Counted from the stretch's first letter, positions 7,274 through 37,580 are shown. The stretch is 42,878 bases of DNA from a virus (IMGVR_UViG_3300025120_011362:1-42878); one strand, 5' to 3'. A program made the numbers and translations. The notes: generated from the sequence alone by a model not told the origin.

Positions 7274-8063
7274 ATTTATTGCGGCAATGGATCACAGTGG
7301 TGGGTCAACAGGCGGCGTACTAGAACGTTACGGACAAGAATACACAGAAGAAAATAAGATGGATCTTGTACACGAAATGCGTATGCGTATGGCAAATAGT
7401 CCAGACTTTACAAGCGATAATATTTGGGCCGCAATACTTTATCAGGACACAGTCAAACGAGATATGGTTCCTTTTTTAAAACAAAAACACATCGAAGCAT
7501 TTTTAAAAGTAGACAGTGGGTGCCAAGAAGATGGAACACTAAAACAGTTTCCGCTTGATGAGATGATTGAATTTGCTAGAGAGCGTGGATGCTACGGAAC
7601 AAAGATGCGTAGCATTGTTAAAACTCCAGAAATATTAGATGCAGTGTTAGAGCAACAATTCGACTTAGCTGAAAAAATCTATGCTAGAGATCTTATACCA
7701 ATAGTAGAACCTGAAATTCCAATTGAACACGAACACAAGCAAGGATTAGAAATTGCACTGTTCAGAGGACTTGAAGAACAGTTAGATAAATTTAATGGAA
7801 AATGTATACTCAAACTTACACTTCCTGAACAGTCCAATATGTATATAGAGTTAACAAAACATAAAAATGTAAATAAAGTTGTTGGGCTCAGTGGTGGTTA
7901 CCCAACTATGGAAGCATGTCGCAGGCTTAGTGCTAATACAGATGTTACTGCAAGTTTTAGTAGAGCACTTAGTGAAGGACTGAACATAAGTCAAACAGAT
8001 GCTGAATTTAATGCTAAGATCACACAGAACATCAATATGATTGTGCAAGCTAGCAAGGCTTGA
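7266..8063 (+). CDS. fda: class I fructose-bisphosphate aldolase (S. aureus Fda type)
   Basis: This Schiff-base aldolase interconverts fructose 1,6-bisphosphate with two triose phosphates. The 265-residue barrel matches the short bacterial class I family: AMDHSGGST at residues 7-15, AFLKVDSG, GTKMRS at 111-116, PIVEPE at 145-150, LKLTLPE with the predicted Schiff-base Lys183, VVGLSGGY, and SFSRALSEGL near the end. I start at ATG 7266, inside the HAD stop; the frame is open further upstream, but that would overlap the HAD gene by about 150 bp. Together with GAPDH and PEP carboxykinase in this window it points to gluconeogenic flow. Confidence 0.93.
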   Translation: MSKFIAAMDHSGGSTGGVLERYGQEYTEENKMDLVHEMRMRMANSPDFTSDNIWAAILYQDTVKRDMVPFLKQKHIEAFLKVDSGCQEDGTLKQFPLDEMIEFARERGCYGTKMRSIVKTPEILDAVLEQQFDLAEKIYARDLIPIVEPEIPIEHEHKQGLEIALFRGLEEQLDKFNGKCILKLTLPEQSNMYIELTKHKNVNKVVGLSGGYPTMEACRRLSANTDVTASFSRALSEGLNISQTDAEFNAKITQNINMIVQASKA

Positions 8064-8116: not shown

Positions 8117-8524
8117 ATGTCAAAACAAATTGATTTAAAGAAATACGAAGAATTTGTAGATGCAGTAACCAGCGAAGAAAGCAAAAACAATGATGCGTTC
8201 GTTGCTAACTGGTACAACCTAAACCAAGACGTTGATATGCCACGTCTGCTAACCGCAAGTTGTGGACTAGGTGCAGAAGCTGGTGAGTTTACTGAGATAG
8301 TTAAGAAAGCTATGTTTCAAGGTAAGCCAATGTCAGAAGATAACATCTATCATATGCAACGTGAATTGGGAGATGTAATGTGGTATTGGATGCAAGGGTG
8401 CATGGCACTAAAAATTGATCCAAATGAAGTCATTCAAATGAATATTGATAAACTTAAAGCACGTTACCCAGGTGGCGACTTTGACGCTTATTATAGTGAG
8501 AATAGAAAAGAAGGAGATATCTAA
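8117..8524 (+). CDS. mazG: MazG-family nucleotide pyrophosphohydrolase
   Basis: A 135-residue all-alpha NTP-PPase that cleaves nucleoside triphosphates to monophosphate and pyrophosphate; cyanophage MazG has been linked to dNTP control or host stress signalling. The metal-binding helices show Glu54/Glu57 (EAGEFTE) and Glu83/Asp86 (ELGDVMWYW). It is a single-domain MazG, unlike the two-domain E. coli protein. It has its own promoter and its stop overlaps the next ATG. A second MazG-like gene lies at 32.0 kb. Confidence 0.9.
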   Translation: MSKQIDLKKYEEFVDAVTSEESKNNDAFVANWYNLNQDVDMPRLLTASCGLGAEAGEFTEIVKKAMFQGKPMSEDNIYHMQRELGDVMWYWMQGCMALKIDPNEVIQMNIDKLKARYPGGDFDAYYSENRKEGDI

Positions 8525-12022: not shown

Positions 12023-12456
12023 GAAATACCAAGACAGCAAGAGGTTCAGTTATTGATATGTCGGCACTAGCGGCTCAACATGAAACTACTAGAGCAGTAA
12101 GTAATGTATCAATGAACGGACGTGGTGATAGATTAAACCAAGATGGAAGCATAAAAGTAAGTGCAGAAGATATTGCAGTTGCACATCAAAATATGCAAGT
12201 GCCACCTGAACAACAGCCTATTAGTAATCCTAAACCCATCCAAGCAAAAGCAAAATCACCTGAACCAAAACAAAAAGAGAAAAAGAAAACAGCAACAGTT
12301 CAAGATGTAGAAGTACCTAATCTTGAAGAGCAGTTCAGCCAAGAACCTGAAGCAATAAGTAAGATTACCAGAACCAGAGACGATGGTACTAAATTCGTAG
12401 AAATCGAATATGACGATGGTAGCATCGAGACTGTAGAAATCGCAGGGGAAGAATGA
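12019..12456 (+). CDS. disordered conserved phage protein, 145 aa
   Basis: A 145-residue protein with a conserved-looking N terminus (RNTKTARGSVIDMSALAAQH, then AVSNVSMNGRGD), a Pro/Gln/Lys-rich, probably disordered middle (residues about 70-95) and an acidic beta-hairpin-like C terminus (DDGTKFVEIEYDDGSIETVEI). I recall proteins with a similar N terminus as conserved hypotheticals in T4-like cyanophages. Both ends overlap neighbours by ATGA. Function unknown. Confidence 0.7.
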   Translation: MRNTKTARGSVIDMSALAAQHETTRAVSNVSMNGRGDRLNQDGSIKVSAEDIAVAHQNMQVPPEQQPISNPKPIQAKAKSPEPKQKEKKKTATVQDVEVPNLEEQFSQEPEAISKITRTRDDGTKFVEIEYDDGSIETVEIAGEE

Positions 12457-13652
12457 CTAACATAAGCATTACTACACATCCTACAGGCAGGTCACCTGAA
12501 AACAAATACTTTTTTGGCAAACAAGCTGAACAATTAGATTTAACCAGACCCAAGTTTAATAAAATAGGTAAAGAAGAAGACTTCAACGATTTCTTAACTT
12601 TACTAACACAGCAACAAAATTATTTAGAACCTATGAACTTTGAAACAGTAGGCACTAACTTTACACTGCATACAAATGATGAACGACACAAACAGTTTGT
12701 TTGGAATATGTTTAAGGTTACTGCTGAAGATCAAGAAGGTGATTGGACAATATATCACAACACCAGCATCAAAATGGAACCCAAAATATATGTACACCTT
12801 GATAGGAAACTACTATTAATTGGAGGTACAACATTTTTAGGCGAGATCAAAAAGGGTGTATTTGGTATAGTTAGTTTTGAGTTACCCAAGTTTGATAGAC
12901 TACCTATGCATTGTGGAGCATTTACATATCGTAAAACAACTAACCTAATGTTTGGATTAAGTGGTACAGGCAAGACTACATTGTCAAGTGATCCTGAATA
13001 CAAACTTATTAGTGATGATGAAGTTGTTTGGAGCAACATGGGTATTAGAATGATTGAAACAGGTTGTTATGCAAAAAGCGAAGGCTTGACACCTGAGACA
13101 CATCCTACTATTTTTAGTGCAGTAGAAGAAGCAAGACGCAGAGACACACTAGTAGAAGAAAATCCTGAAGCGGCAAATGCAAGATTAAGTTATCCTATTA
13201 GTTGTGTAGAAAATGCTTATCACAAACGCAGTAATTTTGACCACGCAAATAATATATTCTTTTTAACAATGGATGCAGAAGGTGTATTTCCTGCTATCAG
13301 TAGAATAAGTGGTAAGGCAGTTAGACGCTTTTTTGAAACAGGATATACCAGTGTAATGCCAGGTACAGAGTCAGGCGTAACAGAAATACAACGCACATTT
13401 AGTCCTTGTTACGGATCACCTTTTATGCCTAGAGCAGTTAGCACATACAGTGACATGCTGATGGACAAAGTTGAACAACATGGCAGTAACGTATTTTTAG
13501 TAAACACAGGAATGAATCCAGAATCCGGAGAACGTTTCGCATTAGACTTTACTAGGAACACAATTAAGCAAGCAATACTAACAGAGTATCCAATGAGAGA
13601 TACAAGCGAACAAGTTTTACAAACACTCGAACAAATCATAGAAGGAGTATAG
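12453..13652 (+). CDS. pckA: compact ATP-type phosphoenolpyruvate carboxykinase
   Basis: PEPCK converts oxaloacetate and ATP to PEP, ADP and CO2, the entry step of gluconeogenesis. The active-site series is complete: Arg13 (TGRSPENK), Lys133/134 (GEIKKGVF), His153 (LPMHCGAF), P-loop GLSGTGKTTLS at 168-178, Asp188/Asp189 (LISDDEVVW), CYAK, Arg244 (ARLSYPI), DAEGVFPAISR and the FLVNTGM adenine side. At 399 residues it is far shorter than the usual 520-540: both the N-terminal segment before the Arg13 region and roughly the last 80 residues are missing. It is coupled by ATGA and followed after one base by the GroES-like gene. Confidence 0.9.
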   Translation: MTNISITTHPTGRSPENKYFFGKQAEQLDLTRPKFNKIGKEEDFNDFLTLLTQQQNYLEPMNFETVGTNFTLHTNDERHKQFVWNMFKVTAEDQEGDWTIYHNTSIKMEPKIYVHLDRKLLLIGGTTFLGEIKKGVFGIVSFELPKFDRLPMHCGAFTYRKTTNLMFGLSGTGKTTLSSDPEYKLISDDEVVWSNMGIRMIETGCYAKSEGLTPETHPTIFSAVEEARRRDTLVEENPEAANARLSYPISCVENAYHKRSNFDHANNIFFLTMDAEGVFPAISRISGKAVRRFFETGYTSVMPGTESGVTEIQRTFSPCYGSPFMPRAVSTYSDMLMDKVEQHGSNVFLVNTGMNPESGERFALDFTRNTIKQAILTEYPMRDTSEQVLQTLEQIIEGV

Positions 13653-15513: not shown

Positions 15514-15706
15514 AGAAGAAGCACAAGAACAAGCTGAACAGGCATATAAAATATTTTTAAAATTTATGAAGTGGCTTTCATATGGTACTGTTGCAATAAT
15601 GCTTGTAGTTGCTAGTTGTAACTTTGGAGTAGATGGAACTGGAGGAAAGTACGACCCAGATCCAGCATTACAAGATGAATATAGAAGTAGGATGGGTATT
15701 ACTTGA
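15497..15706 (+). CDS. small membrane protein, 69 aa
   Basis: A 69-residue protein with an acidic, helical N terminus (KEEAQEQAEQAYKIFLKFMK), one membrane helix (LSYGTVAIMLVVASCNFG) and a polar C-terminal tail. The VASC sequence resembles a lipobox, but it lies about 40 residues in, so a simple single-span topology is likelier. It overlaps the PsiE-like gene by 17 bp and the GAPDH gene by 4 bp. Function unknown. Confidence 0.65.
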   Translation: MSNSIKEEAQEQAEQAYKIFLKFMKWLSYGTVAIMLVVASCNFGVDGTGGKYDPDPALQDEYRSRMGIT

Positions 15707-16665
15707 TTAAAGTAGGCATAAACGGTTTCGGAAGAATAGGCAGATGCCTTGCAAGACATATCATGAGCGAACGCAATGATATGGAACTTGTACAAGTCAA
15801 TGCTAGTGGAGTACGTGATACAAATATACATCTGTTAAAATATGATAGTGTACATGGACGATACACAGGGCCAATACAAGATCCTATACTGTGGACACAA
15901 GAACGTGATATAAGCAAAATAAAATGGTATAATGTTGATATAGTATTTGAATGTACTGGTGCGTTCAGAGATGGTGATATTTGCATGCATCATATATCAG
16001 GGGGTGCAAATAAAGTTGTTATTAGTAGCCCAGCAAAGAATGTAGACAAGACAGTTGTATTCGGTGTTAATCATTTAGAAATTAGTACAGATGATTATAT
16101 AATAAGCAATGCTAGTTGCACAACAAATTGTTTAGCACCACTAGTTAAAGTATTAGACGAAAACTTTTTTATACTAAATGGACAAATGACAACCATTCAT
16201 AGTTACACAGGTGATCAAAGTACAATAGATAAAAAACATAAAGATCCATATCGTGCTAGAGCCGCAGGTACAAATATGATACCAACTAGTACAGGAGCCG
16301 CCAAAGCAATCGGTATAGTATATCCAAAGCTAACAAATAAAATATTAGGCAGTTCAATAAGAGTCCCAACTCCAAATGTAAGTTGTATTGACCTAACTGT
16401 AAATGTACAACAAAAAACTACAGTTGAAGAAATAAACGCCAAAGTAAAAGAAAGCACACTTAATGGAATGAAAAATATCATTGGATATAATGATGAACCA
16501 TTGGTAAGCAGTGACTTTAATACAACAAAAGAAAGTTGTATATTTGCTCCACAACAAACAAGAGTGGTTGACAAGACTATGATTCGTGTGCTATCATGGT
16601 ATGATAATGAATGGGCATTTAGTTGTAGAATGGCTGATGTAGCAAAGCATATGAGTGAACAATGA
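15703..16665 (+). CDS. gap: glyceraldehyde-3-phosphate dehydrogenase
   Basis: This glycolytic/gluconeogenic enzyme interconverts glyceraldehyde 3-phosphate and 1,3-bisphosphoglycerate. The 320-residue protein has the Rossmann motif INGFGRIGR at 6-14, LLKYDSVHGRY, the active site SNASCTTNCLAP with Cys139, His166 (TTIHSYTGDQ), RARAAGTNMIPTSTGAA, and the terminal SWYDNEWAFS. The start is TTG at 15703, overlapping the previous stop. Residues after the second strand read VNASGVRD instead of the Asp-containing VxIND of NAD-specific enzymes, so NADP use is possible. Its stop overlaps the cupin ATG. Confidence 0.94.
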   Translation: MIKVGINGFGRIGRCLARHIMSERNDMELVQVNASGVRDTNIHLLKYDSVHGRYTGPIQDPILWTQERDISKIKWYNVDIVFECTGAFRDGDICMHHISGGANKVVISSPAKNVDKTVVFGVNHLEISTDDYIISNASCTTNCLAPLVKVLDENFFILNGQMTTIHSYTGDQSTIDKKHKDPYRARAAGTNMIPTSTGAAKAIGIVYPKLTNKILGSSIRVPTPNVSCIDLTVNVQQKTTVEEINAKVKESTLNGMKNIIGYNDEPLVSSDFNTTKESCIFAPQQTRVVDKTMIRVLSWYDNEWAFSCRMADVAKHMSEQ

Positions 16666-18286: not shown

Positions 18287-18309
18287 TATTGCAGACAGAG
18301 GAGTACTAT

Positions 18310-18591
18310 ATGGGAGACGCACTCAAACTCATCTCAGATGTTGGGTTTCCTATAGCCGCGGCAGCCGCTAGCGGTTATCTTGTTTTTTTAACCATAAAAT
18401 TTATCCTCGACGGAGTAACTGCAAGTGTCAACGGACTAGCTGGCATTATAAAAGGTTTGGACAATCGTGTTCAAACAATGAATAATGACCTAGTGAAGAT
18501 TGATGCTTTAATGAGCTATGCATTAGGCGTTAGACCTAATATTGATCGCATTGCCGCCAACGAAGGTAAGGATGATGCGAGAAAAGATTGA
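18310..18591 (+). CDS. small membrane protein with GFPIAA motif and helical tail
   Basis: A 93-residue protein: one hydrophobic segment (VGFPIAAAAASGYLVFLTIK) near the N terminus, then a long amphipathic helix (GLDNRVQTMNNDLVKIDALM). The ATG at 18310 has GAGGAG before it. The protein at 19046 has the same plan and a matching QYGFPIIAAVGLGYF start, so the two are probably paralogues. Holins and virion-associated proteins can look like this; no family is recognised. Confidence 0.7.
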   Translation: MGDALKLISDVGFPIAAAAASGYLVFLTIKFILDGVTASVNGLAGIIKGLDNRVQTMNNDLVKIDALMSYALGVRPNIDRIAANEGKDDARKD

Positions 18592-18852: not shown

Positions 18853-19046
18853 TTAAAAACTTAAAAGACTTAATAATTGTTGCACTCGTTATAGGAGTGT
18901 TATCATTACTAGGTTTAATAATTGTAGGCGATTACTATGTTGCACTACAAGAAAACAGACCAGTAGATGAAAGTGTTATTACATTAATGAAAATGGCACT
19001 AACTGGATTAATAGGCATTATTGCAGGATACGTAGGAAGTAAGTAA
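18849..19046 (+). CDS. small two-span membrane protein, 65 aa
   Basis: A 65-residue protein with two hydrophobic helices (LIIVALVIGVLSLLGLIIVG and ALTGLIGIIAGYVGS) joined by a polar loop of about 18 residues. The size and two-helix topology fit a holin, which forms lesions in the inner membrane at lysis, but membrane proteins of other roles look the same. Its stop shares one base with the ATG at 19046. Confidence 0.6.
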   Translation: MIKNLKDLIIVALVIGVLSLLGLIIVGDYYVALQENRPVDESVITLMKMALTGLIGIIAGYVGSK

Positions 19047-19375
19047 TGAACCAATTTGCAGATTGGGTTAATCAATACGGATTTCCGATTATAGCCGCAG
19101 TTGGCTTAGGATATTTTATCTATTATATATGGGTATGGGCAACAACGAAAGTTAAGCCAGTTATCTCTAGGGCAATGAAAGATTTAATAGAACTTGTTGA
19201 TAGAGTTCGTATGCTAGACAACGACATGATAAGATTACAACAAAAACTAATGATGGTTTTGGAGTATAAAGAAGAATACGAAAAGATGACAGGTAAAAAA
19301 TTGGATATAGATATCGAAGATATCGAAAAGATAAAAAAAGAATTAAATGAGAAAGATAAAACTATATCCAATTAA
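19046..19375 (+). CDS. membrane-anchored coiled-coil protein, paralogue of 18310 product
   Basis: A 109-residue protein with an N-terminal membrane helix (YGFPIIAAVGLGYFIYYIW) and a long charged helical region (VRMLDNDMIRLQQKLMMVLEY...IEKIKKELNEKDK), probably coiled coil. It shares the GFPI-AA start and an L-D-N-x/D-M-type tail with the protein at 18310. It is the last plus-strand gene before the convergent minus-strand cyclase, separated by only 2 bp, so the two transcripts must end inside each other. Confidence 0.7.
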   Translation: MNQFADWVNQYGFPIIAAVGLGYFIYYIWVWATTKVKPVISRAMKDLIELVDRVRMLDNDMIRLQQKLMMVLEYKEEYEKMTGKKLDIDIEDIEKIKKELNEKDKTISN

Positions 19376-19377
19376 AA

Positions 19378-21426
19378 CTACTTTGTAGTTGCGATAAACA
19401 CACCATTCCAATCAGCAGGTAAAGGTTGAGTTTTCATAAACTCACAACGTTCTTTCCACATATTATAGTAACCTTCCATCTTTCCATCAAAGTTACTATA
19501 CAGTTGGTCACATAATTTAATTGCTTCATCAAACTTTTGTTGTTTATAATACTCGTACATTTGTACATGATATTTTTGACTGGTTCTGTATGCAGGCTTT
19601 ACATCATCTAATACAGTCCATATACCAATACCAATTGTTTTACCTTTAACTGCTAGATCATCTACTTTTAAATAAAAGAAATCATCTTTGGTACGTTCGT
19701 ATGTGTTTTCACCTACCAATAGTACACACCCATATTCTTTACACTTGCTTTCTATTCTAGCGGCTGTGCTGACTGAGTCTCCGAGGACGTCATAGCTGTG
19801 TCGTTGGGTTGATCCCATTTCTCCCAAATAGCCAAGCCCAGTATTGATACCAGCCCCCATGCCAACAGGAGGTCTGCCATCAGCCGTAATTTTCTCATTG
19901 AATTTCTCCACTGCTTTCAGCATATCCAATCCACATTGAATTGCTGTCTTAGGATGCTCTGGATCGTCAATTGGAGCATTGTGTACATGCATACTTGCAT
20001 CACCTATATATTTTATAATCATTCCATCCATGTCTAATACTGGTTGTGTAATGGCATCCATATAACCATTCATAATTTTCGTAAGACCCTTAACATCATC
20101 ACCAAATGATTCTCCCAACGGCGTAAAGCCACGTAAGTCACTAAAGCATATGCTAACTTCTTTTTTCATACCGTCTTTAATAAGTGCAGGGTTCTCTTGT
20201 AGTAAACGCACAACTGTAGGACTTGCGTATCCTGCAAACTGTTTCTTTATCTTTTGTTTCTCAAAAAACTCTAGCACAAATCTTAAAAATATAGCATGCA
20301 AACCTACAAGCACTATTGCAAGCATAGGCATTGTTGCATCTAGCAAGTACAAATAATTTGTCCAAGCATACCAAGTTGCGTATACAACACCAACTCCAAA
20401 TGTAATAATACTTAAACCTGCCAGCCAATAGGGAGCAAAGCGACCAAGTATAACGATCAAAAATCCGACACTAAATGTAGTAGCTATCTCTAATAAAAAG
20501 GCCCAATACGGACGAGATATTGTGTCTCCATCTAGTATATTTTGTAATGATACGGCACTAGGCATATAGTTATATTGCCCGCCTTTGGGACTTGCAATGA
20601 TATTTGTTAATCCGTCTGCTGTTACACCAACTATTACAGTTTTACCTAGTAGTTCTGGAAACCTAGTTATTTCACTTGCACTTATTGTATCAAATGTTTT
20701 ATTCCAACGTAGCCAAACTCTAGCATTGCTATCTGTTTGTATTACTGCATAACCAGGTACACGCATTTTGTCTATGCCGCCTTCGTTACTCTTAACTTGA
20801 TAGCTAGGTTCACCAACAGCAACACGTATTGTTTCAATTGCAATACTAGGATAAATGTCTTCACCTATACGCATCAACAACGGCAAGCGTCTGACTACAC
20901 CATCGATCTCGGGTACAGTGTTTAATACTCCAACACCGTCTGCATTTTCCCCAAATTCTGGTATTGGTCCTATCATACCGTCCCATTCAAATAAGAAAGG
21001 TAATGGATCATTAATTTTTGCTACGCCACGTGGCACACCATTTTTGTTTGCTGTAAAACTTCCGTTTTGACCTATTACTACACCGTTACCATTAATAGCA
21101 TTAAGCAATTCTTGGTCACCATCTAGTCTATCATATTCACTAAACAGTATAGGAAGCACAATAATACCAGCACCTGCTTCTCTTAGTTCCCATATTATAC
21201 CCGCTAGTACACTACGCTTCCAAGGCCATTGTCCGTATTTTTCTAATGACGCTTCGTCAATCGTTACAATACCTATATCGTTACTGTGTACTATCTCATC
21301 TTGTTGTTGTAATAAATCAAAGCTCTTGAGCCTTGCAGTTTCAACAACATAGTTGTCGTTGTAGTGAAACAATGTAATTAGTATAGCAGTTACAAATGCT
21401 AATGTCCAGTGTGTTAGTATTTTCAT
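19378..21426 (-). CDS. CHASE2-domain class III adenylate cyclase
   Basis: A 682-residue membrane receptor-cyclase predicted to make cAMP. After an N-terminal anchor helix (about 5-20), residues 45-300 are an extracytoplasmic CHASE2 sensor (IGIVTIDEASLEKYGQWPW, AGIIVLPILFSEYDR). Three membrane helices follow (about 308-385), then a cytoplasmic cyclase domain (about 422-606). Metal ligands Asp430 (CFSDLRGFT) and Asp476 (YIGDASM) are present, and Lys472 with Asp546 fit adenine specificity. The usual catalytic Asn of the VNxAAR motif is Ser553 (VSTAARIE), Arg557 is kept. I start at MKILTHW, coupled by ATGA to the preceding gene; it is the last gene of the curli block. Confidence 0.92.
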   Translation of the reverse strand: MKILTHWTLAFVTAILITLFHYNDNYVVETARLKSFDLLQQQDEIVHSNDIGIVTIDEASLEKYGQWPWKRSVLAGIIWELREAGAGIIVLPILFSEYDRLDGDQELLNAINGNGVVIGQNGSFTANKNGVPRGVAKINDPLPFLFEWDGMIGPIPEFGENADGVGVLNTVPEIDGVVRRLPLLMRIGEDIYPSIAIETIRVAVGEPSYQVKSNEGGIDKMRVPGYAVIQTDSNARVWLRWNKTFDTISASEITRFPELLGKTVIVGVTADGLTNIIASPKGGQYNYMPSAVSLQNILDGDTISRPYWAFLLEIATTFSVGFLIVILGRFAPYWLAGLSIITFGVGVVYATWYAWTNYLYLLDATMPMLAIVLVGLHAIFLRFVLEFFEKQKIKKQFAGYASPTVVRLLQENPALIKDGMKKEVSICFSDLRGFTPLGESFGDDVKGLTKIMNGYMDAITQPVLDMDGMIIKYIGDASMHVHNAPIDDPEHPKTAIQCGLDMLKAVEKFNEKITADGRPPVGMGAGINTGLGYLGEMGSTQRHSYDVLGDSVSTAARIESKCKEYGCVLLVGENTYERTKDDFFYLKVDDLAVKGKTIGIGIWTVLDDVKPAYRTSQKYHVQMYEYYKQQKFDEAIKLCDQLYSNFDGKMEGYYNMWKERCEFMKTQPLPADWNGVFIATTK

Positions 21427-21542
21427 AATCCTAAACTCCACATCCAAATCGGAATAATAATAAAATGTAATATTACACACAATGCAATCATTAGTACTAC
21501 TGTTCTTTTACCCTGGGGGTGATTGTTTCCGTGCATACTCAT
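21423..21542 (-). CDS. small single-span membrane protein, 39 aa
   Basis: A 39-residue protein: a short basic N terminus (MSMHGNNHPQGKRT) and one membrane helix (VVLMIALCVILHFIIIPIWM). Its stop overlaps the cyclase start (ATGA), so it is probably co-translated with the cyclase and could be its small partner. The frame is open upstream into the previous gene, but the Met at 21542 begins after that gene ends. Function unknown. Confidence 0.6.
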   Translation of the reverse strand: MSMHGNNHPQGKRTVVLMIALCVILHFIIIPIWMWSLGL

Positions 21543-21546
21543 GTAA

Positions 21547-21789
21547 TTACTTATTAGTAATTTTACCAATGGCTTCTTTGGTCCATTTGTTTTTCTTAAA
21601 GTCACGTTCTTTGAAAGGTAGTACTGGTCTATCTACATAAAGAATTTTAGGACATTGAAATTGTTTTAGCGTACTAGCAAATTCTCTAGTACTATCTTTG
21701 CATGTGTAGAAGCACATGAGATCTTCTTTAACTATTTCTTTATATACTATTTGGCAAGACATCATGCCTGCCATCACTAATTCTATCAT
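21547..21789 (-). CDS. hypothetical protein of the curli block, 80 aa
   Basis: An 80-residue protein starting MIELVMAGMMSCQIVYKEIV, with four cysteines and a basic C terminus (ERDFKKNKWTKEAIGK). AAGGAGG before the ATG at 21789 supports this start over longer versions. The N terminus is mildly hydrophobic but does not form a clear signal peptide. It lies 11 bp after the second curlin-like gene. No domain recognised. Confidence 0.65.
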   Translation of the reverse strand: MIELVMAGMMSCQIVYKEIVKEDLMCFYTCKDSTREFASTLKQFQCPKILYVDRPVLPFKERDFKKNKWTKEAIGKITNK

Positions 21790-21800
21790 CACGTCCTCCT

Positions 21801-22841
21801 TTAGTTTTGGGTAACTGTTATTGCACACCCAATAGCATTTGTACACGTACCTGTCATGTTGTACGTTTGATTAGTAGTTGCATGTTGTGTTAGATCTAAA
21901 TTATATGCGCCGCCTGCATTTGTAAGATCTATATTTGTAGTATGACTTCCGTATCTCTGATTTACATCTACTGTGTGTCCATCATCTAGTACAATATCAG
22001 CAAACTGTACATTACTGTTTCCTCGCTGTAAAAGTTCTACAGTATTACCATCACCGTTTATTTCTACAAAGCCTTCGTGGTCACTTGCACCACGCTGTGT
22101 ATGTTTTACATCATTGTTATCACCTGTAACATAATTTGCAATGTGTTGTCCGCCGTTGCCATTGTCGTCTGTTTGATAACTTTCTAGGTTATTACTGTTG
22201 CCTGACACAATCCAATACAAATCATTGCTTCCAGTTTCGTCTGGATCTACACTACCATCTTCGTGCTTGCCTTGCCATGCTTTGATATCATTGCTATTAC
22301 CATTTACAGTTATACGCAGTGTATTACTGTCTTGACTTTGTATTTGTGCATCGATATCATTACTATCACCATTTAGGACTTCTACATATGCATTGTTGCT
22401 GTCGCCTTTTATAATAACACTCATGTCATTGAATTCATCGCCGCCATTACCTATTTCAGTATGTGTAACATTGCTGTCACCTTCGATGTCCACACTCATA
22501 TCATTGTTGTTGCCGTGATTGTCCATAGCACTAACGTTACTATCTCCGTCCTGTGTGAGGCTCATAACTTGATTACCACCGTGTGTCCAAAAACCTGCAC
22601 GGTTGTTGTCACCTTGTTGAGTAACAGCAAATGTTTTATTATTTCCGCCTATACTAGCATAACCTGAAGTAGTATTCAAACTGCGGATTGAATTATCATT
22701 GCCGTCTTGAGTAATATCCATATCAATGATATTACCTACCTGATTTATGTAAATGTCGTTGGCGTTACCAGTTTGATTGCTTAACAACAATATTATTGTT
22801 GCCGCTAGGGCCAACTTCATATTCAAATATTTCCCAGTCAT
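21801..22841 (-). CDS. curlin-like secreted repeat protein (second)
   Basis: A 346-residue predicted secreted amyloid-type protein. After a signal peptide ending about GNA, the mature part is almost wholly Asn/Gln/Gly/Asp/Ser-rich repeats of the curlin kind, such as FAVTQQGDNN, MSLTQDGDSN, VIIKGDSNNAYVEV and VELLQRGNSNVQF. The mature N terminus (NDIYINQVGN, then DMDITQDGNDN) closely matches that of the other curlin-like protein at 23903. It is longer than E. coli CsgA (about 150 residues). AGGA lies before ATG 22841, which is 77 bp inside the FecR gene. Probably exported through the adjacent CsgG pore. Confidence 0.85.
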   Translation of the reverse strand: MTGKYLNMKLALAATIILLLSNQTGNANDIYINQVGNIIDMDITQDGNDNSIRSLNTTSGYASIGGNNKTFAVTQQGDNNRAGFWTHGGNQVMSLTQDGDSNVSAMDNHGNNNDMSVDIEGDSNVTHTEIGNGGDEFNDMSVIIKGDSNNAYVEVLNGDSNDIDAQIQSQDSNTLRITVNGNSNDIKAWQGKHEDGSVDPDETGSNDLYWIVSGNSNNLESYQTDDNGNGGQHIANYVTGDNNDVKHTQRGASDHEGFVEINGDGNTVELLQRGNSNVQFADIVLDDGHTVDVNQRYGSHTTNIDLTNAGGAYNLDLTQHATTNQTYNMTGTCTNAIGCAITVTQN

Positions 22842-23931
22842 TTTGTCCTAAGTCCAAGTTGTATCCGTGTTGATTGTGTAATCTCAATCTAAAGTAATTG
22901 TCTCCACTGTTGTCTTGTCTTTCGACAACATAATAGTCTCCGTCTTTTTCAAAACGTATTCCTGTTTCAGGATCAAATCCATACTGTGATGCTTCTTCTT
23001 TAAAAAATTTCTCATTTTGTAATTGTAAATGATCTTTGAATAATGCATACAACAGTTGATTTAGTTTATCTAACATGTCGTATAGCACATCTGCAAGCAT
23101 ATAATCTGTTTCGTCTAGTTGTGTTACCCAAATACTTTCAATACTATTACCGAGAGCATCAGTATCTAAGTCTGTAAAGTCTAAAAAGTCAATACCCAAA
23201 AAGTCAAACATACGCCTTGCTTGGCGTTGTATAATAGCTTCTTCGTCTTCATAGGGCATGCGTTTACGAAGGATCAACAGTTGGTTAATCATCTTCTCAT
23301 CTAAGTCAAGTGTTAAAGGTTTTGTAGGTGGCTGACTGCCAATACTAGTCATTGTTGTTTGAAATGCTTGATTCATTATCACAAACCCAACATCTGTTTC
23401 TACTTTAATTTCGCCAGTAAAGCAGTAACCATCTTCGTCGCAACTAGGTAAAAGTGTTACCATTGTTGCTCCTACTTCATCGACTACTAAAATAAAGTCT
23501 GTACCTCTTACTCCAATTGTAGCACTAGGTGTTCTTATTCTTACATTTTGTTTATATCTTTTTGCAATTTGACCACTAGCATATCGCATGGTACCCAGAC
23601 TAGCTTTTAATCCTAGCTTACCCACACCGTTGGCTGGGTCATAAACAAACTCGTCTATAAGCAATCTACTGTGTTCAGTTATGTCAACTCTTGTCTCATC
23701 AACAAAATCAATCTGCATAGTGCCTCTGGCAGTAACGGCTGTGTCCATACTTTTGACTCCGATCCCATTACCGCCAGTTATAACAGCACCATTTCTTTCT
23801 AGAACTCCACTGCCTTTAATTTTACCAATCGCTCCAGCATCAGGAGCAAGTGCATGTACAGGTGTACATATTGCTAAAAGAAAAAGTAGTAGTAAACTTA
23901 TGCTAGTCAGTTTGGCTAATGTTGACGTCAC
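22765..23931 (-). CDS. FecR-domain periplasmic protein with curlin-like C-terminal end
   Basis: A protein of about 388 residues with a signal peptide (LTSISLLLLFLLAICTPVHA) and a FecR domain over roughly residues 40-190; the FecR hallmark TPSATIGVRGTDFILVV is clear. The middle is helical and acidic. The last residues (VGPSGNNNIVVKQSNW) resemble a curlin strand. GTG at 23931 has AAGGAG at proper distance; an ATG at 23935-23937 abuts that site. The gene overlaps both neighbouring curlin-like genes (29 and 77 bp). FecR-type domains act as periplasmic sensors or scaffolds; here it may serve curlin export or the CHASE2 cyclase. Confidence 0.85.
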   Translation of the reverse strand: MTSTLAKLTSISLLLLFLLAICTPVHALAPDAGAIGKIKGSGVLERNGAVITGGNGIGVKSMDTAVTARGTMQIDFVDETRVDITEHSRLLIDEFVYDPANGVGKLGLKASLGTMRYASGQIAKRYKQNVRIRTPSATIGVRGTDFILVVDEVGATMVTLLPSCDEDGYCFTGEIKVETDVGFVIMNQAFQTTMTSIGSQPPTKPLTLDLDEKMINQLLILRKRMPYEDEEAIIQRQARRMFDFLGIDFLDFTDLDTDALGNSIESIWVTQLDETDYMLADVLYDMLDKLNQLLYALFKDHLQLQNEKFFKEEASQYGFDPETGIRFEKDGDYYVVERQDNSGDNYFRLRLHNQHGYNLDLGQNDWEIFEYEVGPSGNNNIVVKQSNW

Positions 23932-24637
23932 CGCCATCTCCTTGCATTGTCATATCCACTTTGTTATCTTTAACACCGGACTGAAGTATTTTGACATTGT
24001 TTCCGCCACCAACTACTCCAAGTGTAATGCTGTGCCCTGCACTATCGCCTGCACCAGATTGATCTATGTCTACATAGTTTCCGCCTGATCCAGTTGTAAG
24101 TCCACTACCCACATTATTGATTGTACCACTTGCTGTTGAACTAGCATTGTTTAGTGTAACTGTTACATCACTTGCAGTTGCATCATTGATCACGTCAATT
24201 ACGTTACCGTCACCTGTTACTGTAAAGTTAGCGGCTAGGTTGTCTGCATCACTGTTTTCTCCGATGAATACTTTAAATTTGTTGTCGTCTCCAGTTGTTG
24301 TAATATTTACAGTTACAGTTTCACAATCTACTGCACTAGTGCTAGCACACTTCATGTTTACTTCGTTTGAATCGCCTGTAAATGTCCAAGTACCTGTATA
24401 GTCGTTGCCTTTAATTATTGCATCTATTTTGTTAGTACTACCCGTTTGAGTAATACTAAAAGTCATATCATCGCCTCTTAGTGTGGCATCTGTGGTGCTA
24501 TCACCAAATTCGTTGTCAGTTCCGTCTTGAACTATGTCCAGATCTAAAGTGTCACCTACTTGTTCTATATAAATGTCGTTGGCGAACGCAGTGCTGGATA
24601 CTGCCAGGACAGCTAATATCATTAATATACTACGCAT
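23903..24637 (-). CDS. curlin-like secreted repeat protein (first)
   Basis: A 244-residue predicted secreted protein with signal peptide MRSILMILAVLAVSSTAFA and a Thr/Asn/Gly/Asp-rich mature part with curlin-type strands, for example MTFSITQTGSTNKIDAII, YVDIDQSGAG, NVKILQSGVKDNKV and the terminal DVNISQTD. The mature start NDIYIEQVGD, then DLDIVQDGTDN, matches the other curlin-like protein, suggesting a shared export or nucleation signal. Two Cys in the middle (KCASTSAVDC) could form a disulphide. Its ATG shares one base with the csgG stop. Which of the two is major subunit or nucleator is unknown. Confidence 0.85.
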   Translation of the reverse strand: MRSILMILAVLAVSSTAFANDIYIEQVGDTLDLDIVQDGTDNEFGDSTTDATLRGDDMTFSITQTGSTNKIDAIIKGNDYTGTWTFTGDSNEVNMKCASTSAVDCETVTVNITTTGDDNKFKVFIGENSDADNLAANFTVTGDGNVIDVINDATASDVTVTLNNASSTASGTINNVGSGLTTGSGGNYVDIDQSGAGDSAGHSITLGVVGGGNNVKILQSGVKDNKVDMTMQGDGGDVNISQTD

Positions 24638-25473
24638 TATTCTTCCTTTATTTGTCTAAAAGGTTTTTTAAATTTCCAAAACTCTTTTCTCTCGCCTTCA
24701 TATATTAATTCAATTATGCCTGCTTCGATCGCCGCCCTTACTGCATAATTAACGGGCTCATTTACAGACCAACCAATTTCGCTTTCAACTAATTTGGTAC
24801 CTAGGTCTAAAAATTTAAAAATGTCCGCGCCTGTTCTATAACTTGCTATAGTTTTTTCTGTAGCTACACTCATCATCACTTTTCCTGTGCTGACACTAAC
24901 TACACGCATTACTACAGTGACCGTATCTATTCTGTATTCATCTTGCATTCCAACGCCGAGCCATCTTGCTCCTGCGCCTCCAACTGCAATGTTACTATCA
25001 TAGCCTACTATGCCACCCTCAAGTAATAGTCCGGCAAAAACCATGGGTTTGAGAGGAGTGGGCCCGTTAGGTAGATCTTTCTCATACACATCTCTGGTGT
25101 TTCGAATTAGCTGACGCTCTTTAATTAGATTGTCCAATCCAACCCTCTCAACAACTGTGAACCACGTGCCGCCTCCTACTTCTTCTAGTGCGTTTATAAC
25201 CCATACTTCTGAGCCTTGTGTAACTGCACTACTTAAATTTGCTATTTTATCTGCTGGTTTTCTTTGTCCAGTCTTGTCCATAAAATTGTAAACTGCAATG
25301 GTTATCCTATTACCATCCAATTCCGGAACACTATTCATACGTTCCTGATTAGGAGATCCTTGTAGTCTAGCTGGACCATCCACGTTATTTCGTGCCATGT
25401 CCAAAGACCTCACCATAGCTGTACAACCCGATAACAGTAAACCGAGTATCAATATTAATAAACTATGCTTCAA
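24637..25473 (-). CDS. csgG: CsgG curli secretion pore lipoprotein
   Basis: CsgG forms the nonameric outer-membrane pore of type VIII secretion. The 278-residue protein has a lipoprotein signal (LLLSGC, Cys17) and the CsgG core in order: ITIAVYNFMDKTGQRKP, the constriction region of the pore; WFTVVERVGLDNLIKERQLI; LLLEGGIVGYDSN; GGAGARWLGVG; VVMRVVSVSTGKVMMSV; EIGWSVNEPVNYAVRAAIE. The Tyr-Asn constriction residues are kept and the Phe position is occupied. Length matches E. coli CsgG (277). It overlaps csgF by ATGA. No csgE gene is visible. Confidence 0.95.
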   Translation of the reverse strand: MKHSLLILILGLLLSGCTAMVRSLDMARNNVDGPARLQGSPNQERMNSVPELDGNRITIAVYNFMDKTGQRKPADKIANLSSAVTQGSEVWVINALEEVGGGTWFTVVERVGLDNLIKERQLIRNTRDVYEKDLPNGPTPLKPMVFAGLLLEGGIVGYDSNIAVGGAGARWLGVGMQDEYRIDTVTVVMRVVSVSTGKVMMSVATEKTIASYRTGADIFKFLDLGTKLVESEIGWSVNEPVNYAVRAAIEAGIIELIYEGERKEFWKFKKPFRQIKEE

Positions 25474-25958
25474 AAAAAGAACTCCCCTTCGCCAGGAATT
25501 GTAATCTCAGTGGTTCCGTCCTCACTAACAACTACTAAAGTTATACTACCGGTTGTCGCATCTTTGCTCCACGTAATAGTTGCACCTTCAATTTCAGCAG
25601 ACCCGCCTGATGGTGTTGTACATGTTGCACCTTCTGCGGCTTCATCGCAAACCCTAAACATATTGTCTACCATTTGCTTGCTTAACTGTGCATATATTCT
25701 ACTTTCTACGTTACGCATAAATTTGTTCAATATAGTATTTTCTAGTTCTCGTTCTATTCGACGTGCTTCAGCCTCAGCATCCTTACGTTGGTCTTCTCTT
25801 CTATTGTGTTGTAGCTGTTCTACACTCAACACATGCGTAGAGTAACCGTTACCATAATGGAAGGCTGGCGACTTGAAACTCCATCCGAGTTCCGAGGCGT
25901 TAGATTGTATTGAAGATATAAGAATCAGTGCTATTACACTGGTTGTTAAGTTTTTCAT
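25470..25958 (-). CDS. csgF: CsgF-like curli assembly factor
   Basis: CsgF caps the CsgG pore outside the cell and anchors the curli nucleator. This 162-residue protein has a signal peptide ending about SNA, then SELGWSFKSPAFHYGNGY with THVLSVEQLQ, matching the CsgF mature N terminus (FRNPNFGGNP...LLNSAQAQN) that inserts in the pore. The centre is a charged helix and the C terminus a beta-rich ITLVVVSEDGTTEITIPG segment like that of CsgF. I start at ATG 25958 with GGAG eight bases upstream; a GTG at 25967 sits against that site. First gene of the block. Confidence 0.85.
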   Translation of the reverse strand: MKNLTTSVIALILISSIQSNASELGWSFKSPAFHYGNGYSTHVLSVEQLQHNRREDQRKDAEAEARRIERELENTILNKFMRNVESRIYAQLSKQMVDNMFRVCDEAAEGATCTTPSGGSAEIEGATITWSKDATTGSITLVVVSEDGTTEITIPGEGEFFF

Positions 25959-25974
25959 CGTTCTCACTCCTATG

Positions 25975-25982
25975 TATTTATA
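25975..25982 (-). promoter_or_regulatory. T4-late-promoter match (TATAAATA) for the curli block
   Basis: Read on the minus strand, an exact TATAAATA sits 17 bases upstream of the csgF ATG, which places a transcription start just before the ribosome site. This is the full T4 late-promoter core and the best match in the window. It suggests that the curli/cyclase operon is expressed late, with virion genes, though the leader would be very short. Confidence 0.65.
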
Positions 25983-25984
25983 GA

Positions 25985-26008
25985 AAGGTGTAAAAATATT
26001 TACACCTT
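25985..26008. promoter_or_regulatory. 24-bp inverted repeat between csgF and the HTH gene
   Basis: A perfect 10-bp inverted repeat, AAGGTGTAAA / TTTACACCTT, around the 4-base spacer AATA. It lies directly upstream of the curli late promoter and in the divergent gap before the Fis-type HTH gene. A dyad of this size suits a dimeric DNA-binding protein; as RNA it would be a hairpin but has no T-run beyond it, so an operator is likelier than a terminator. Confidence 0.55.
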
Positions 26009-26093: not shown

Positions 26094-26324
26094 ATGCAAG
26101 AAGAAACTGAACAAGACGCCCTATGGCGAGTGTCTGGCGAACTACAGTATAACACATCTATAGACAACTTACCAGAAGCTATAAGCACACTCGAACAAAG
26201 CAACATAGTAATCGCACTAGAAAAGTATAAAGGCAATAGAACCAAAGCCGCTGATGAATTAGGTATTGGCAGAACAAATCTTATAGCAAAAATACGCAAG
26301 TATGACATAAAAACTAGCGTTTGA
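26094..26324 (+). CDS. Fis-type (HTH_8) DNA-binding protein
   Basis: A 76-residue protein whose C-terminal half (ALEKYKGNRTKAADELGIGR, then TNLIAKIRKYDI) is a Fis/NtrC-type helix-turn-helix with the conserved GNRTKAADELGI...L..KI..Y pattern. The N-terminal 40 residues are acidic and may dimerise. TGAGG precedes ATG 26094. It is divergent from the curli block, across a gap with two palindromes, and so is a good candidate for local control of that block; a broader role in phage transcription is equally possible. Confidence 0.85.
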   Translation: MQEETEQDALWRVSGELQYNTSIDNLPEAISTLEQSNIVIALEKYKGNRTKAADELGIGRTNLIAKIRKYDIKTSV

Positions 26325-28193: not shown

Positions 28194-28320
28194 TCATAAA
28201 ACATATGCAGATTATGTAGAATATAATCATGCTAGAGGGTATGGCGCATTTCCTGAAGATCTTTGGAATGCATTAAAAGAACAAGACGCAAACACAGTTT
28301 ATAGAAAGACAACTCAATGA
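28180..28320 (+). CDS. small hypothetical protein, 46 aa
   Basis: A 46-residue protein rich in Tyr and charged residues (YADYVEYNHARGYGAFPEDL). Its ATG lies in the end of the SWIM gene (14-bp overlap) and its TGA overlaps the PTH2 ATG. It fills what would be a 120-bp gap, and couplings at both ends support it. No function recognised. Confidence 0.6.
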   Translation: MLAIDHKTYADYVEYNHARGYGAFPEDLWNALKEQDANTVYRKTTQ

Positions 28321-28724
28321 CACCTGTATTATATATTTTAATGAGAACTGATTTGGATTCAATGAATCCTGGTAAAGCTATGGCACAAGCTAGTCATGCC
28401 GGCAGTGCATTTGTACATTCAATAGAGGGTGGATACAATGTAGATGAAGATCTGTTTGAAGAATGGCAAGAGTCAACGACACAAGGTTTTGGTACTGTGT
28501 TGGTACTTGGTGTTAATGAAGATCAAATGAGAACCGCAGTTGAAGTTGCTGAAAGTTGTGGCGTAGATAAGTTTCCATGTGACATTATACATGATCCAAC
28601 TTACCCACTACAAGATGGTGACACCACACACTTTATTCCTTTGGATACTTGTGGTTATATATTTGGTGATAAAGATGATGAGATTCTGCAATCAATATTA
28701 GGTAATTTTGAATTGCATTATTAG
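28317..28724 (+). CDS. peptidyl-tRNA hydrolase 2 family protein
   Basis: A 135-residue protein of the PTH2 family, which releases tRNA from stalled peptidyl-tRNA. The N-terminal signature LYILMRTDLDSMNPGKAMAQ with SHAGSAFVHS matches the RxDLxMxxGKxAAQxxHA block that builds the active site; later segments (FGTVLVLGVNED, IIHDPTYPL) fit the fold with an insertion. PTH2 is archaeal/eukaryotic-type, unlike the bacterial Pth, so it would add a second activity to the host. It ends just before an early-type promoter. Confidence 0.8.
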   Translation: MTPVLYILMRTDLDSMNPGKAMAQASHAGSAFVHSIEGGYNVDEDLFEEWQESTTQGFGTVLVLGVNEDQMRTAVEVAESCGVDKFPCDIIHDPTYPLQDGDTTHFIPLDTCGYIFGDKDDEILQSILGNFELHY

Positions 28725-33642: not shown

Positions 33643-34215
33643 ATGAAAAAGAATTTAATACTGACCGATTGTGATGGAGTGCTAGTTAATTGGGAAAACA
33701 GTTTCATTGATTGGATGACAGCACAAGGCTTTACACCTGACCCTAATCAATATGGTTATGATATGCACAAAAGGTTTGGTGAGAGAAAAGCAAAGATCAA
33801 AGCATTAGTAAGAGAGTTTAATAACAGTGCTTGGATTGGTTGGTTGAAGCCACACAAAGATGCAGTTGACGGAGTTGCAAAGCTAGCTGAAAAAGGCTGG
33901 AGGTTTGGAGCAATTACTAGTTTAAGCGAAGATGAATATGCACAAAAATTAAGAGCTTACAATATGAAAGATCTTTTTGGAGATGTATTTGATTTTGTAA
34001 CCTGCATTGATACAGGAGCAGACAAAGACGAAGCTCTACTCCCTTATAAAGATAGTGGCTTGTACTGGATAGAAGACAAGCCGGAAAATGCAAAACTTGG
34101 TGCCGATTTTGGTCTTAACACAATAATGTTAAGGCATCAACATAATGCTAACTTTAGTTACGACGGTGTTCATACTGTAGACAACTGGGCTCAAATCGTT
34201 AATTATATTAACTAG
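33643..34215 (+). CDS. HAD-superfamily nucleotidase-like protein
   Basis: A 190-residue HAD hydrolase. Motif I is TDCDGVLVNW with the two catalytic Asp, motif II is the Thr/Ser in GAITSLSED, and the acidic motif IV is YWIEDKPENA. The length and an alpha-helical insert after motif I (residues about 20-60) fit 5'-nucleotidase / deoxyribonucleotidase-like members. It would release nucleosides or act on a sugar phosphate; the substrate is not shown. It has its own early promoter and converges on phoH with an 8-bp overlap. Confidence 0.82.
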   Translation: MKKNLILTDCDGVLVNWENSFIDWMTAQGFTPDPNQYGYDMHKRFGERKAKIKALVREFNNSAWIGWLKPHKDAVDGVAKLAEKGWRFGAITSLSEDEYAQKLRAYNMKDLFGDVFDFVTCIDTGADKDEALLPYKDSGLYWIEDKPENAKLGADFGLNTIMLRHQHNANFSYDGVHTVDNWAQIVNYIN

Positions 34216-34930
34216 TTTCGTCGTAAATCTGTAAAACGTCAGCAACTACAGGATGTCTTTCGACATCCTTTTTTGTAAACTGCACATGTGATATTGTATT
34301 GTATGCTTTTGCATTTAATTTATGTAAAAAGTCTTTCAAACCATTATTTGAATATCCTCTATCGTGTTGAGCAAGGTCACCTGTCACTACTATTTTACTT
34401 CCCTCACCAATACGGGTCAATAACATTTTAGTTTGCTCTTGTGTTGCGTTCTGCATTTCGTCTGCAATAATCCAAGAATTTTTAAATGTTCGTCCACGCA
34501 TGAATGCTAAAGGTGATATTTCAATTGTTTTATTTTCTAACATTTGTGCCACCTGTTTGGGTTTGTAGTATTCTTCTAGAAAATCAAAGATTGGTCTAGT
34601 CCAGGGTTCCATTTTTTGTTTTAAGTCGCCGGGCAAAAAGCCGTGTTGTTCGTCAACACTAACGGCGGGCCGAGTAACCACTATGCGATTAACCTCTCCA
34701 TCTTCTAACTTGCGTACTCCCATCTGCACAGCCATCATAGTTTTGCCCGTACCAGCTGGTCCAGTTGCAAAAACAATATGTTTGGAAGTGTCATTTAAGT
34801 ATTCAAGAAGATCTTCTTGATGCAAGTTGCGAGGTAGGATTTGTAGTTTCTTTCTGCGATAATCTTGCAGTTCAATAACCATATCGTTAAACGATCCTCT
34901 CGGGTTTTGTTTTTTTGCTCTTTTAGCCAT
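34208..34930 (-). CDS. phoH: PhoH-like ATPase
   Basis: A 240-residue P-loop ATPase of the PhoH family, widespread in marine phages. Walker A is GPAGTGKT at 57-64. RIVVTRPAVSVDEQHGFLPG, the Walker B region WIIADEMQNAT and KIVVTGDLAQHD follow as in PhoH/PhoL. The family is tied to phosphate starvation in E. coli and to RNA metabolism by domain fusions; its phage role is not settled. It is a lone minus-strand gene, divergent from the gene at 35006 across the second TACATAAGTACTTAT element. Confidence 0.95.
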   Translation of the reverse strand: MAKRAKKQNPRGSFNDMVIELQDYRRKKLQILPRNLHQEDLLEYLNDTSKHIVFATGPAGTGKTMMAVQMGVRKLEDGEVNRIVVTRPAVSVDEQHGFLPGDLKQKMEPWTRPIFDFLEEYYKPKQVAQMLENKTIEISPLAFMRGRTFKNSWIIADEMQNATQEQTKMLLTRIGEGSKIVVTGDLAQHDRGYSNNGLKDFLHKLNAKAYNTISHVQFTKKDVERHPVVADVLQIYDETS

Positions 34931-36537: not shown

Positions 36538-36799
36538 TGCACCCACTATTCGTATAGTGTCAAGACCCGATCCAATCGAAATGCGTAATGCAGATATCGT
36601 TGTTGTGACTGAAGCAAACCTACAAGAAGTTATTAAACGTGTAAAAACTGAACAGGGCGATTTTGTATTGTATGCAATGACTGCACAAAGTTTTGAACAC
36701 CTAGCATTGAGTTTTGAACAAATTAAAAAGTTTATAGAAGAACAAAATGCTATAATTCTGTATTACGAAGAAGCAGTAAAACCTAAAGAAAATGATTGA
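36413..36799 (+). CDS. lipoprotein, probable outer-membrane spanin
   Basis: A 128-residue protein with a lipoprotein signal peptide (LTFSLALLVVLVGASAC, lipid Cys20) and a Pro/Val-rich mature start (SPVKEIVTVPTVVETPEIDA), as in o-spanins (Rz1). It starts inside the preceding i-spanin-like gene. At 128 residues it is longer than classic Rz1 and has a helical C-terminal half (SFEHLALSFEQIKKFIEEQN), so it may have an added periplasmic part. It overlaps the dnaJ gene by 8 bp. Confidence 0.7.
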   Translation: MNKLTFSLALLVVLVGASACSRLSPVKEIVTVPTVVETPEIDAPTIRIVSRPDPIEMRNADIVVVTEANLQEVIKRVKTEQGDFVLYAMTAQSFEHLALSFEQIKKFIEEQNAIILYYEEAVKPKEND

Positions 36800-37580
36800 C
36801 CCATACAGTACCTTAGGAGTTAGTAAAACATCAACTGATTCTGAGATAAAATCTGCATATAGACGTTTGGCTAAACAGTGGCACCCAGATGCTGGTGGCG
36901 ATGAAAGCAAGTTCTCTAATGTAAACAATGCATACAACATGATTAAAGACGCTGAGCACCGTCAAAATTTTGAAAACGAAAAACTTGGCCCGTCAAATTT
37001 CCAACAGTCGCAAAATCCTTTTAGACAAAACTTTGGAGACTTCAATAATATATTCAATCAAATGTTTACGCAAAACACACAGAGACCGCAACCAAAACCA
37101 CAAACACATCTAGTATTCAATATTGATGTGCAAGATGTTTTTGATGGAGCAACAAAGAATATAAATGTAAGTATAGGCAATCAAAACAAGCCACTAAGTA
37201 TAACAATACCAAAAGGAATAAAGAGTGGTGATGAAGTAATATATCAAAATATGGCTCCTACTGGCGGAGATCTAGTAATTAAGTTTGTTATCAACGAAGA
37301 ACCAAACTGTTATACACAAGGTCATAATCTAATACGTACACTTCCGATTGGAGTCGCAGAAGCAATGATAGGTACAGAAAAAATTATAACAACTCTTGAC
37401 AAGAAACAATTTAAACTACATATTAAAAGTGGAACACAACATGGAACAAAATTAAGAATACCAGAAGGTGGATTACCACGCAAAAATAAACCCAACGGCG
37501 ATTTAATTGTGGAAATAAAAGTAAAAATACCAAAATTAAATAATAATGACCTAGACAAAAAACTAAGAGATATGTTATAA
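36792..37580 (+). CDS. dnaJ: DnaJ/CbpA-like J-domain co-chaperone
   Basis: A 262-residue Hsp40. The J domain (residues 1-65) has the DnaK-activating HPD at 31-33 (KQWHPDAGGDE). A Gln/Asn/Phe-rich linker (about 70-100) follows, then two beta substrate-binding domains (HLVFNIDVQDVFDGATKNIN; GGLPRKNKPNGDLIVEIKVK). It lacks the cysteine zinc finger, so it is CbpA-like (class B). It would work with host DnaK. It lies directly before the ClpA-type gene, so unfolding and folding functions are paired. Confidence 0.92.
   Translation: MIDPYSTLGVSKTSTDSEIKSAYRRLAKQWHPDAGGDESKFSNVNNAYNMIKDAEHRQNFENEKLGPSNFQQSQNPFRQNFGDFNNIFNQMFTQNTQRPQPKPQTHLVFNIDVQDVFDGATKNINVSIGNQNKPLSITIPKGIKSGDEVIYQNMAPTGGDLVIKFVINEEPNCYTQGHNLIRTLPIGVAEAMIGTEKIITTLDKKQFKLHIKSGTQHGTKLRIPEGGLPRKNKPNGDLIVEIKVKIPKLNNNDLDKKLRDML

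Follow-up and report, generated by a model that had tools for sequence, protein, structure and literature searches.

Curli genes carried by phages are widespread in the sea, and their role there is unexplained. In a 42,878-nucleotide viral stretch (IMGVR_UViG_3300025120_011362:1-42878, analyzed whole and called the window below), such genes share a block with a FecR-domain protein and a nucleotide cyclase. What might a phage gain from joining a secretion system to a cyclase, and what switches the block on? The data yield a candidate regulator-operator pair ahead of the block, together with a FecR-CHASE2 pairing from which contact of a ligand with its receptor is predicted.

Gene content of the block

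The minus strand between 19378 and 25967 encodes CsgF, CsgG, a curlin-like protein, a FecR-domain protein, a second curlin, one or two small open reading frames (ORFs), and a CHASE2 class III cyclase. A preliminary description had reported this string behind an exact TATAAATA. Indeed, all the genes it named are present and most have Pfam support; CsgF, CsgG, the CUR2 curlin repeat, FecR, CHASE2, and Guanylate_cyc each exceed the gathering score. The features, with those on either side of the block, are as follows.

25470-25967, minus: csgF, type VIII secretion pore cap (PF10614, 37.6 bits, cut-off 25.8; F-x-[NS]-P-x-F plug motif)
24637-25473, minus: csgG, outer-membrane secretion pore lipoprotein (PF03783, 156 bits; lipobox)
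23903-24637, minus: CUR1, curlin-like secreted protein (PF07012, 17.8 bits, cut-off 20.7; place between csgG and the FecR gene conserved)
22765-23937, minus: secreted FecR-domain protein (PF04773, 35.9 bits; AF2 pLDDT 83; PupR, Z 15.4)
21801-22841, minus: CUR2, curlin, predicted beta-solenoid (PF07012, 26.5 bits; AF2 pTM 0.82; CsgA 8c50, Z 31.1)
21547-21846, minus: small ORF, 99 aa from the mechanical start, no known family (homologs in several loci)
21423-21605, minus: small hydrophobic ORF, 60 aa (no homolog found)
19378-21480, minus: CHASE2 class III nucleotide cyclase (PF05226, 141.8 bits; PF00211, 62.2 bits; catalytic residues)
25975-25982, minus: TATAAATA, T4-late-type -10 box (exact octamer)
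25987-26006, no strand: palindrome GGTGTAAAAATATTTACACC, putative operator (24 bp with flanks, 25985-26008)
26094-26324, plus: divergent 76-aa Fis/TyrR-type helix-turn-helix (HTH) protein, putative regulator (PF02954, 44.9 bits; PF18024, 29.0 bits)
19046-19375, plus: small single-TM protein of the phrog_18771 family, module companion
18289-18591, plus: paralogous small single-TM protein of the phrog_18771 family

The gene overlaps of 1 to 77 bp in the preliminary description exist as listed mechanically, but they rest on mechanically listed start codons, which exaggerate some of them. Judged by homologs, the cyclase probably starts at an ATG near 21426 (MKILTHW...), and the true starts of CUR2 and the 99-aa ORF probably also lie later than listed, so several overlaps shrink. 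Homologs of the 99-aa ORF adjoin the cyclase in several loci. No homolog of the 60-aa ORF was found, and this ORF is possibly not a true gene. PHROGs includes families for the cyclase, FecR, CsgG, and CsgF, without a stated function.

An assembly chimera or a bacterial insert had been named as what would undo the phage assignment. Contig L004 carries the same module with the same flanking genes for GAPDH and PEPCK, so the block is no assembly chimera, and module neighbors are common to many contigs.

Distribution and phage lineage

A tblastn search of phage records recovered the block, in the same order, from pelagiphage HTVC008M (NC_020484) and four Melnitz isolates. Furthermore, a single-protein scan of IMG/VR gave 386 cyclase relatives, and among the best 80 of these 386 loci the order csgF-csgG-curlin-FecR-curlin-cyclase was found nearly wherever the contig was long enough. 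The exceptions are L062, L077, and L081, which have no recognized second curlin, and L030 and L036, where the csg genes are read in the opposite direction to the cyclase; the latter therefore probably has its own promoter in those two. CHASE2 cyclase and FecR genes beside csgG, which the preliminary description had proposed to search for, are thus present in several phages, and the gene order is not peculiar to the window.

The gene set is not new either. The FecR and cyclase parts had been thought undescribed, but a cluster of curli genes, FecR, and adenylate cyclase was reported from podo- and myo-pelagiphages in 2022, with an argument for its alphaproteobacterial origin and with no CsgE gate reported for phage modules (PMC9599517). 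Phage csgF and csgG had been described as well (PMC7029224, PMC9004378). With the composition already published, it is the lineage, the regulation, and the companion genes that appear new against the literature examined.

Comparison with known systems sets the window apart in a few respects. HTVC008M has csgF, csgG, curlin, FecR, curlin, and cyclase as in the window, but its catalytic domain has diverged (36%), and it is the window, unlike the HTVC008M-type cluster, that has a divergent HTH gene and a palindrome ahead of the block. The histidine kinase of the podophage clusters (PMC9599517) was not seen in the window. The curli operon of Methylophilales phage Melnitz (PMC9004378) has the same order and a cyclase 65% identical to that of the window; its small membrane pair precedes csgF, whereas in the window the pair follows the cyclase. 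The Melnitz record annotates both FecR and the cyclase, which that paper does not discuss. Alphaproteobacterial csgF-csgG-curlin operons share csgG and curlins with the window, and csgF where it was found. Within flanks of about 10 kb in both directions (in L219, a few kb in one of them), neither FecR nor a CHASE2 cyclase lay near alphaproteobacterial csgG among the matches listed.

A pelagimyophage origin of the window is not supported: its clamp loader is only 38% identical to that of HTVC008M and 36% to that of Melnitz, compared with 56% for PA5oct-type 286-kb phages. Its ClpA is 46% identical to that of Phosso and 44% to that of Atu_ph07 (469- to 490-kb phages). Among module-bearing records, ten contigs have clamp loaders 59 to 92% identical to that of the window, contigs of 203 and 307 kb included. 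Judging from these proteins, the window is probably a fragment of a marine jumbo-phage lineage; the genome size is one we infer. In clamp loader and ClpA the window is closest to the PA5oct, Phosso, and Atu_ph07 jumbo phages, but in their phage-collection records nothing matched its cyclase, CsgG, or FecR. A literature search for curli in jumbo phages found none, and the presence of the module in such a lineage appears to be new. Curli genes have been reported from one T4-like marine Bacteroidetes viral genome (PMC7198788).

The pore and its curlin substrates

Three elements of a curli-type, or type VIII, system are found in the block: a CsgG lipoprotein, a CsgF with its plug segment, and a substrate with curlin repeats. 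The plug motif is kept in all 60 viral CsgF proteins, and the lipobox in 60 of 61 CsgG relatives. CUR2 lies above the PF07012 cut-off and CUR1 below it. The AF2 model of CUR2 is a beta-solenoid. Among aligned solved structures, the curli subunit CsgA matches it best (Z 31.1 over 292 residues, rmsd 8.8); the next row falls to Z 19.6. Plain Foldseek with this model gave no match below E 0.6, and it was a second look that led to CsgA. The plug motif, the lipobox, and the CsgA-like model of CUR2 favor curlin secretion over a repurposed pore, in keeping with the earlier proposal of a phage-borne secretion unit with true curlins.

A FecR-domain protein paired with a CHASE2 cyclase

In its AF2 model, the FecR protein consists of a signal peptide and the FecR domain, followed by a helical hairpin and, at the C-terminus, a beta domain. 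The FecR domain has the fold of the PupR cell-surface signaling domain. Pfam found no anti-sigma domain ahead of it, where there is only a signal-peptide-like segment. The protein thus has the FecR domain and signaling fold of FecIRA-type anti-sigma regulators but not their cytoplasmic N-terminal anti-sigma domain. A sequence search against solved structures gave only marginal matches, to another domain (E 0.04). A Pfam search for a curlin repeat in the C-terminus had no match in 11 members; there are only a short G..N..I.I.Q motif, in 58/62, and a predicted beta domain. As a separate observation, residues 7 to 101 of the FecR model (22765-23865) resemble the cell surface anchoring domain 5ix9 (Z 7.2, 73 residues, 26% identity), and by this likeness the protein could anchor fibers instead of signaling.

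The cyclase has the CHASE2 sensor and the class III catalytic domain, both above their Pfam cut-offs. The metal-binding D448 and D494, the substrate-binding K490, and the transition-state R575 are invariant in 59 viral cyclases. The transition-state Asn is replaced: residue 571 is Ser in the window and in 57/59 viral cyclases and Asn in 79/80 bacterial relatives, a change that may have lowered or altered the activity. No other part of the module is as well conserved as the catalytic domain. Its protein sequence is 83 to 94% identical while its four-fold sites are only 34 to 66% identical, indicating strong purifying selection, and the preliminary call of a CHASE2 cyclase is upheld.

The two halves of the cyclase have not always evolved together. 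In L068 and L083, the catalytic domain is 88 to 93% identical to that of the window and CHASE2 only 33 to 37%; the reverse pattern, with a diverged catalytic domain and CHASE2 kept, occurs in L070, L082, and HTVC008M. Given CsgG and CsgF, CHASE2 identity tracks FecR-domain identity (partial r 0.69, 0/1000 permutations, in tests that ignore shared ancestry), whereas catalytic-domain identity does not (r -0.06). This pairing argument is weakened by the class B CHASE2 loci, which carry no distinct matching FecR class.

Bacteria also place the two genes side by side. Of 80 bacterial loci with the nearest CHASE2 cyclases, at about 30% identity, 30 have an ORF with a FecR domain within 3 kb of the cyclase and 1 has such an ORF at a greater distance; no CsgG was found in any of the 80. 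Such pairs without curli genes appear to be new, as does the covariation of CHASE2 with FecR. In the Burkholderia BiofilmReg operon (PMC5192318) and a Campylobacterota cluster (PMC9239204), an extracytoplasmic FecR-domain protein is encoded beside a CHASE2 receptor, as in the window; no curli genes were reported in either, and the Burkholderia receptor is a histidine kinase, unlike the cyclase here. A search for cNMP-binding proteins (PF00027) found none in 10 phage records, which were mostly fragments; an effector of cAMP, if there is one, would thus probably come from the host.

A candidate regulatory cassette ahead of csgF

What could time the expression of this operon? Directly ahead of csgF, at 25982-25975 on the minus strand, is the sole copy of TATAAATA in the window. 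One copy is no enrichment, with 5.5 expected in shuffled sequence, and frequency was rejected as evidence by itself. It is the position that is meaningful, because NATAAATA recurs upstream of csgF in 27/61 loci, against 0.03 expected per locus. Read from sequence alone, the operon thus starts with a TATAAATA-like -10 box, as T4-type late promoters do, and the earlier suggestion of a late-type promoter gains support. TATAAATA is also found ahead of the cyclase in 7/76 loci.

Between csgF and the divergent HTH gene lies a 20-bp palindrome, GGTGTAAA-N4-TTTACACC. The HTH is of the Fis/TyrR type, with PF02954 and PF18024, the latter being TyrR's own HTH, both over cut-off. Palindrome and HTH gene go together: across the 60 loci of the cyclase scan, window included, 16 have both, 3 the HTH gene alone, 41 neither, and none a palindrome without the HTH gene (P 6e-12). 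When the loci were clustered at 95% CsgG identity and an HTH gene at any place in the locus was counted, these figures became 12, 4, 32, and 0 (P 3e-8). Of 29 distinct elements, nearly all have a gap of 4 to 6 bp from palindrome to -10 box. From their co-occurrence, the HTH protein most likely binds the palindrome. In L055, L173, and L186, the HTH gene adjoins csgF and the palindrome is about 1.2 kb off, ahead of CUR1, a layout which suggests that the protein acts in trans.

The palindrome arms are the same as those of the TyrR box (TGTAAA-N6-TTTACA, G-N14-C), but the spacing departs from it, with N4 and G-N12-C. We discarded three other assignments. The spacing does not fit the Fis consensus. 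A CRP or NtcA-type site for cAMP feedback was dropped once the link between palindrome and HTH gene had emerged. A sigma-70 promoter that would drive the HTH gene, with a palindrome arm as its -35, occurs in 7/29 elements, versus 3.0 in shuffles (maximum 10).

The cassette is not confined to curli genes. An exact scan of all IMG/VR for the palindrome found it in 45 stretches, in 21 of them ahead of csgF or CUR1; in 7 further stretches, palindrome and HTH gene precede other secreted proteins, some with a phrog_20531 domain. Taken together, HTH protein, 20-bp palindrome, and T4-type late -10 box at 4- to 6-bp spacing may form a transferable switch of marine jumbo-type phages. It would stand ahead of operons for secreted surface proteins (curli with FecR and the CHASE2 cyclase, and separately phrog_20531) and give remodeling of the host surface its own regulator, a reading toward which we lean slightly. 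As a dedicated regulatory cassette, the combination appears to be new.

In L165, L175, L184, L185, L194, L196, and L199, HTH gene, palindrome, and late box lie ahead of secreted Thr/Asn-rich proteins and not of curli genes.

Small membrane proteins accompanying the module

Single-TM proteins of the phrog_18771 type were found within 2.6 kb of the module in 58/60 loci, on the csgF side in 22 and on the cyclase side in 36. In the other two, L055 and L069, the locus stops within or just past the cyclase gene. The simplest reading is that these proteins are part of the module, and as constant membrane partners they appear to be new. Their match to a holin PHROG is marginal and not significant (E 0.04 to 0.05), hinting at a holin role. 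Along with the independent phage lineage that bears the module, these traveling companions are further leads.

The preliminary interpretation had thus recognized the curlin secretion unit, the late promoter, and the CHASE2 cyclase; the novelty of the FecR and cyclase parts is not supported, nor is a pelagimyophage origin, and it missed the HTH regulator, the palindrome, and the small membrane pair.

Possible function of the operon

The best explanation of the whole, which in our estimate has an even chance of being right, is a late surface-fiber operon with a FecR-CHASE2-cAMP sensor of the envelope. The operon, probably transcribed late, would supply the infected cell with the type VIII pore CsgG/CsgF. 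The two curlins would leave through it and form beta-solenoid fibers on the cell surface. CHASE2, the sensor, most likely has its periplasmic partner in the secreted FecR-domain protein, and through the two of them the state of the secretion line or envelope would set cAMP production by the cyclase. The divergent HTH protein, most likely binding the palindrome beside the late-type -10 box, would set when the operon comes on. The phage may benefit through adhesion to surfaces, through aggregation, or by excluding other phages. With an active cyclase, phages would deliver an envelope-sensing cAMP circuit and a fiber system lacking in known SAR11 and OM43 hosts. Against this explanation counts the report that no clumping was seen in Melnitz-infected cells (PMC9004378).

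The same report speaks against an alternative in which selection acts mainly through superinfection exclusion or cell capture, while the cyclase has an accessory role and remodels the host's carbon or envelope regulation via a host CRP-type protein. The curlins are predicted to be secreted, a sibling-capture hypothesis has been put forward (PMC7029224), and the same HTH cassette precedes other secreted phage proteins. These points speak for it, but no phage cAMP receptor turned up in the 10 phage records, and we consider this alternative unlikely.

For Melnitz, it was proposed that the CsgG/CsgF pore times lysis as a gated secretin or pinholin, depolarizing the envelope (PMC9004378). The single-TM proteins near nearly every module and their holin match would suit this, although that match is not significant and the CsgF plug motif is kept throughout. 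Moreover, a lysis pore has no need of two curlins, FecR, and a cyclase, all of which are kept, which makes lysis timing quite unlikely.

The Asn-to-Ser change at 571 would fit a receptor with little or no catalytic activity that is retained for a structural role as a partner, but the invariant metal Asp pair, Lys, and Arg, and the strong conservation of the catalytic domain, make this very improbable. That FecR is an iron-responsive regulator of the curli genes, a reading of PMC9599517, draws on the PupR-like fold; the signal peptide leading directly into the FecR domain, and the bacteria that pair FecR with CHASE2 cyclases and have no curli genes, make it extremely improbable. An open CsgG pore for the uptake of larger molecules (PMC7029224) accords with the lack of a reported CsgE gate but leaves CsgF, two curlins, FecR, and the cyclase unexplained, and deserves hardly any weight.

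Other genes of the window

Elsewhere in the window there is a set of central-carbon genes that is unusual for a phage contig and partly common to contig L004: an ATP-type PEP carboxykinase (12453-13652), GAPDH (15703-16665), and a class-I-aldolase-like ORF (7125-8063), with a PRPP synthetase at 6015-6944. The window also encodes homologs of PhoH (34208-34930), DnaJ (36792-37580), ClpA (37603-39840), peptidyl-tRNA hydrolase 2 (28317-28724), and MazG (8117-8524).
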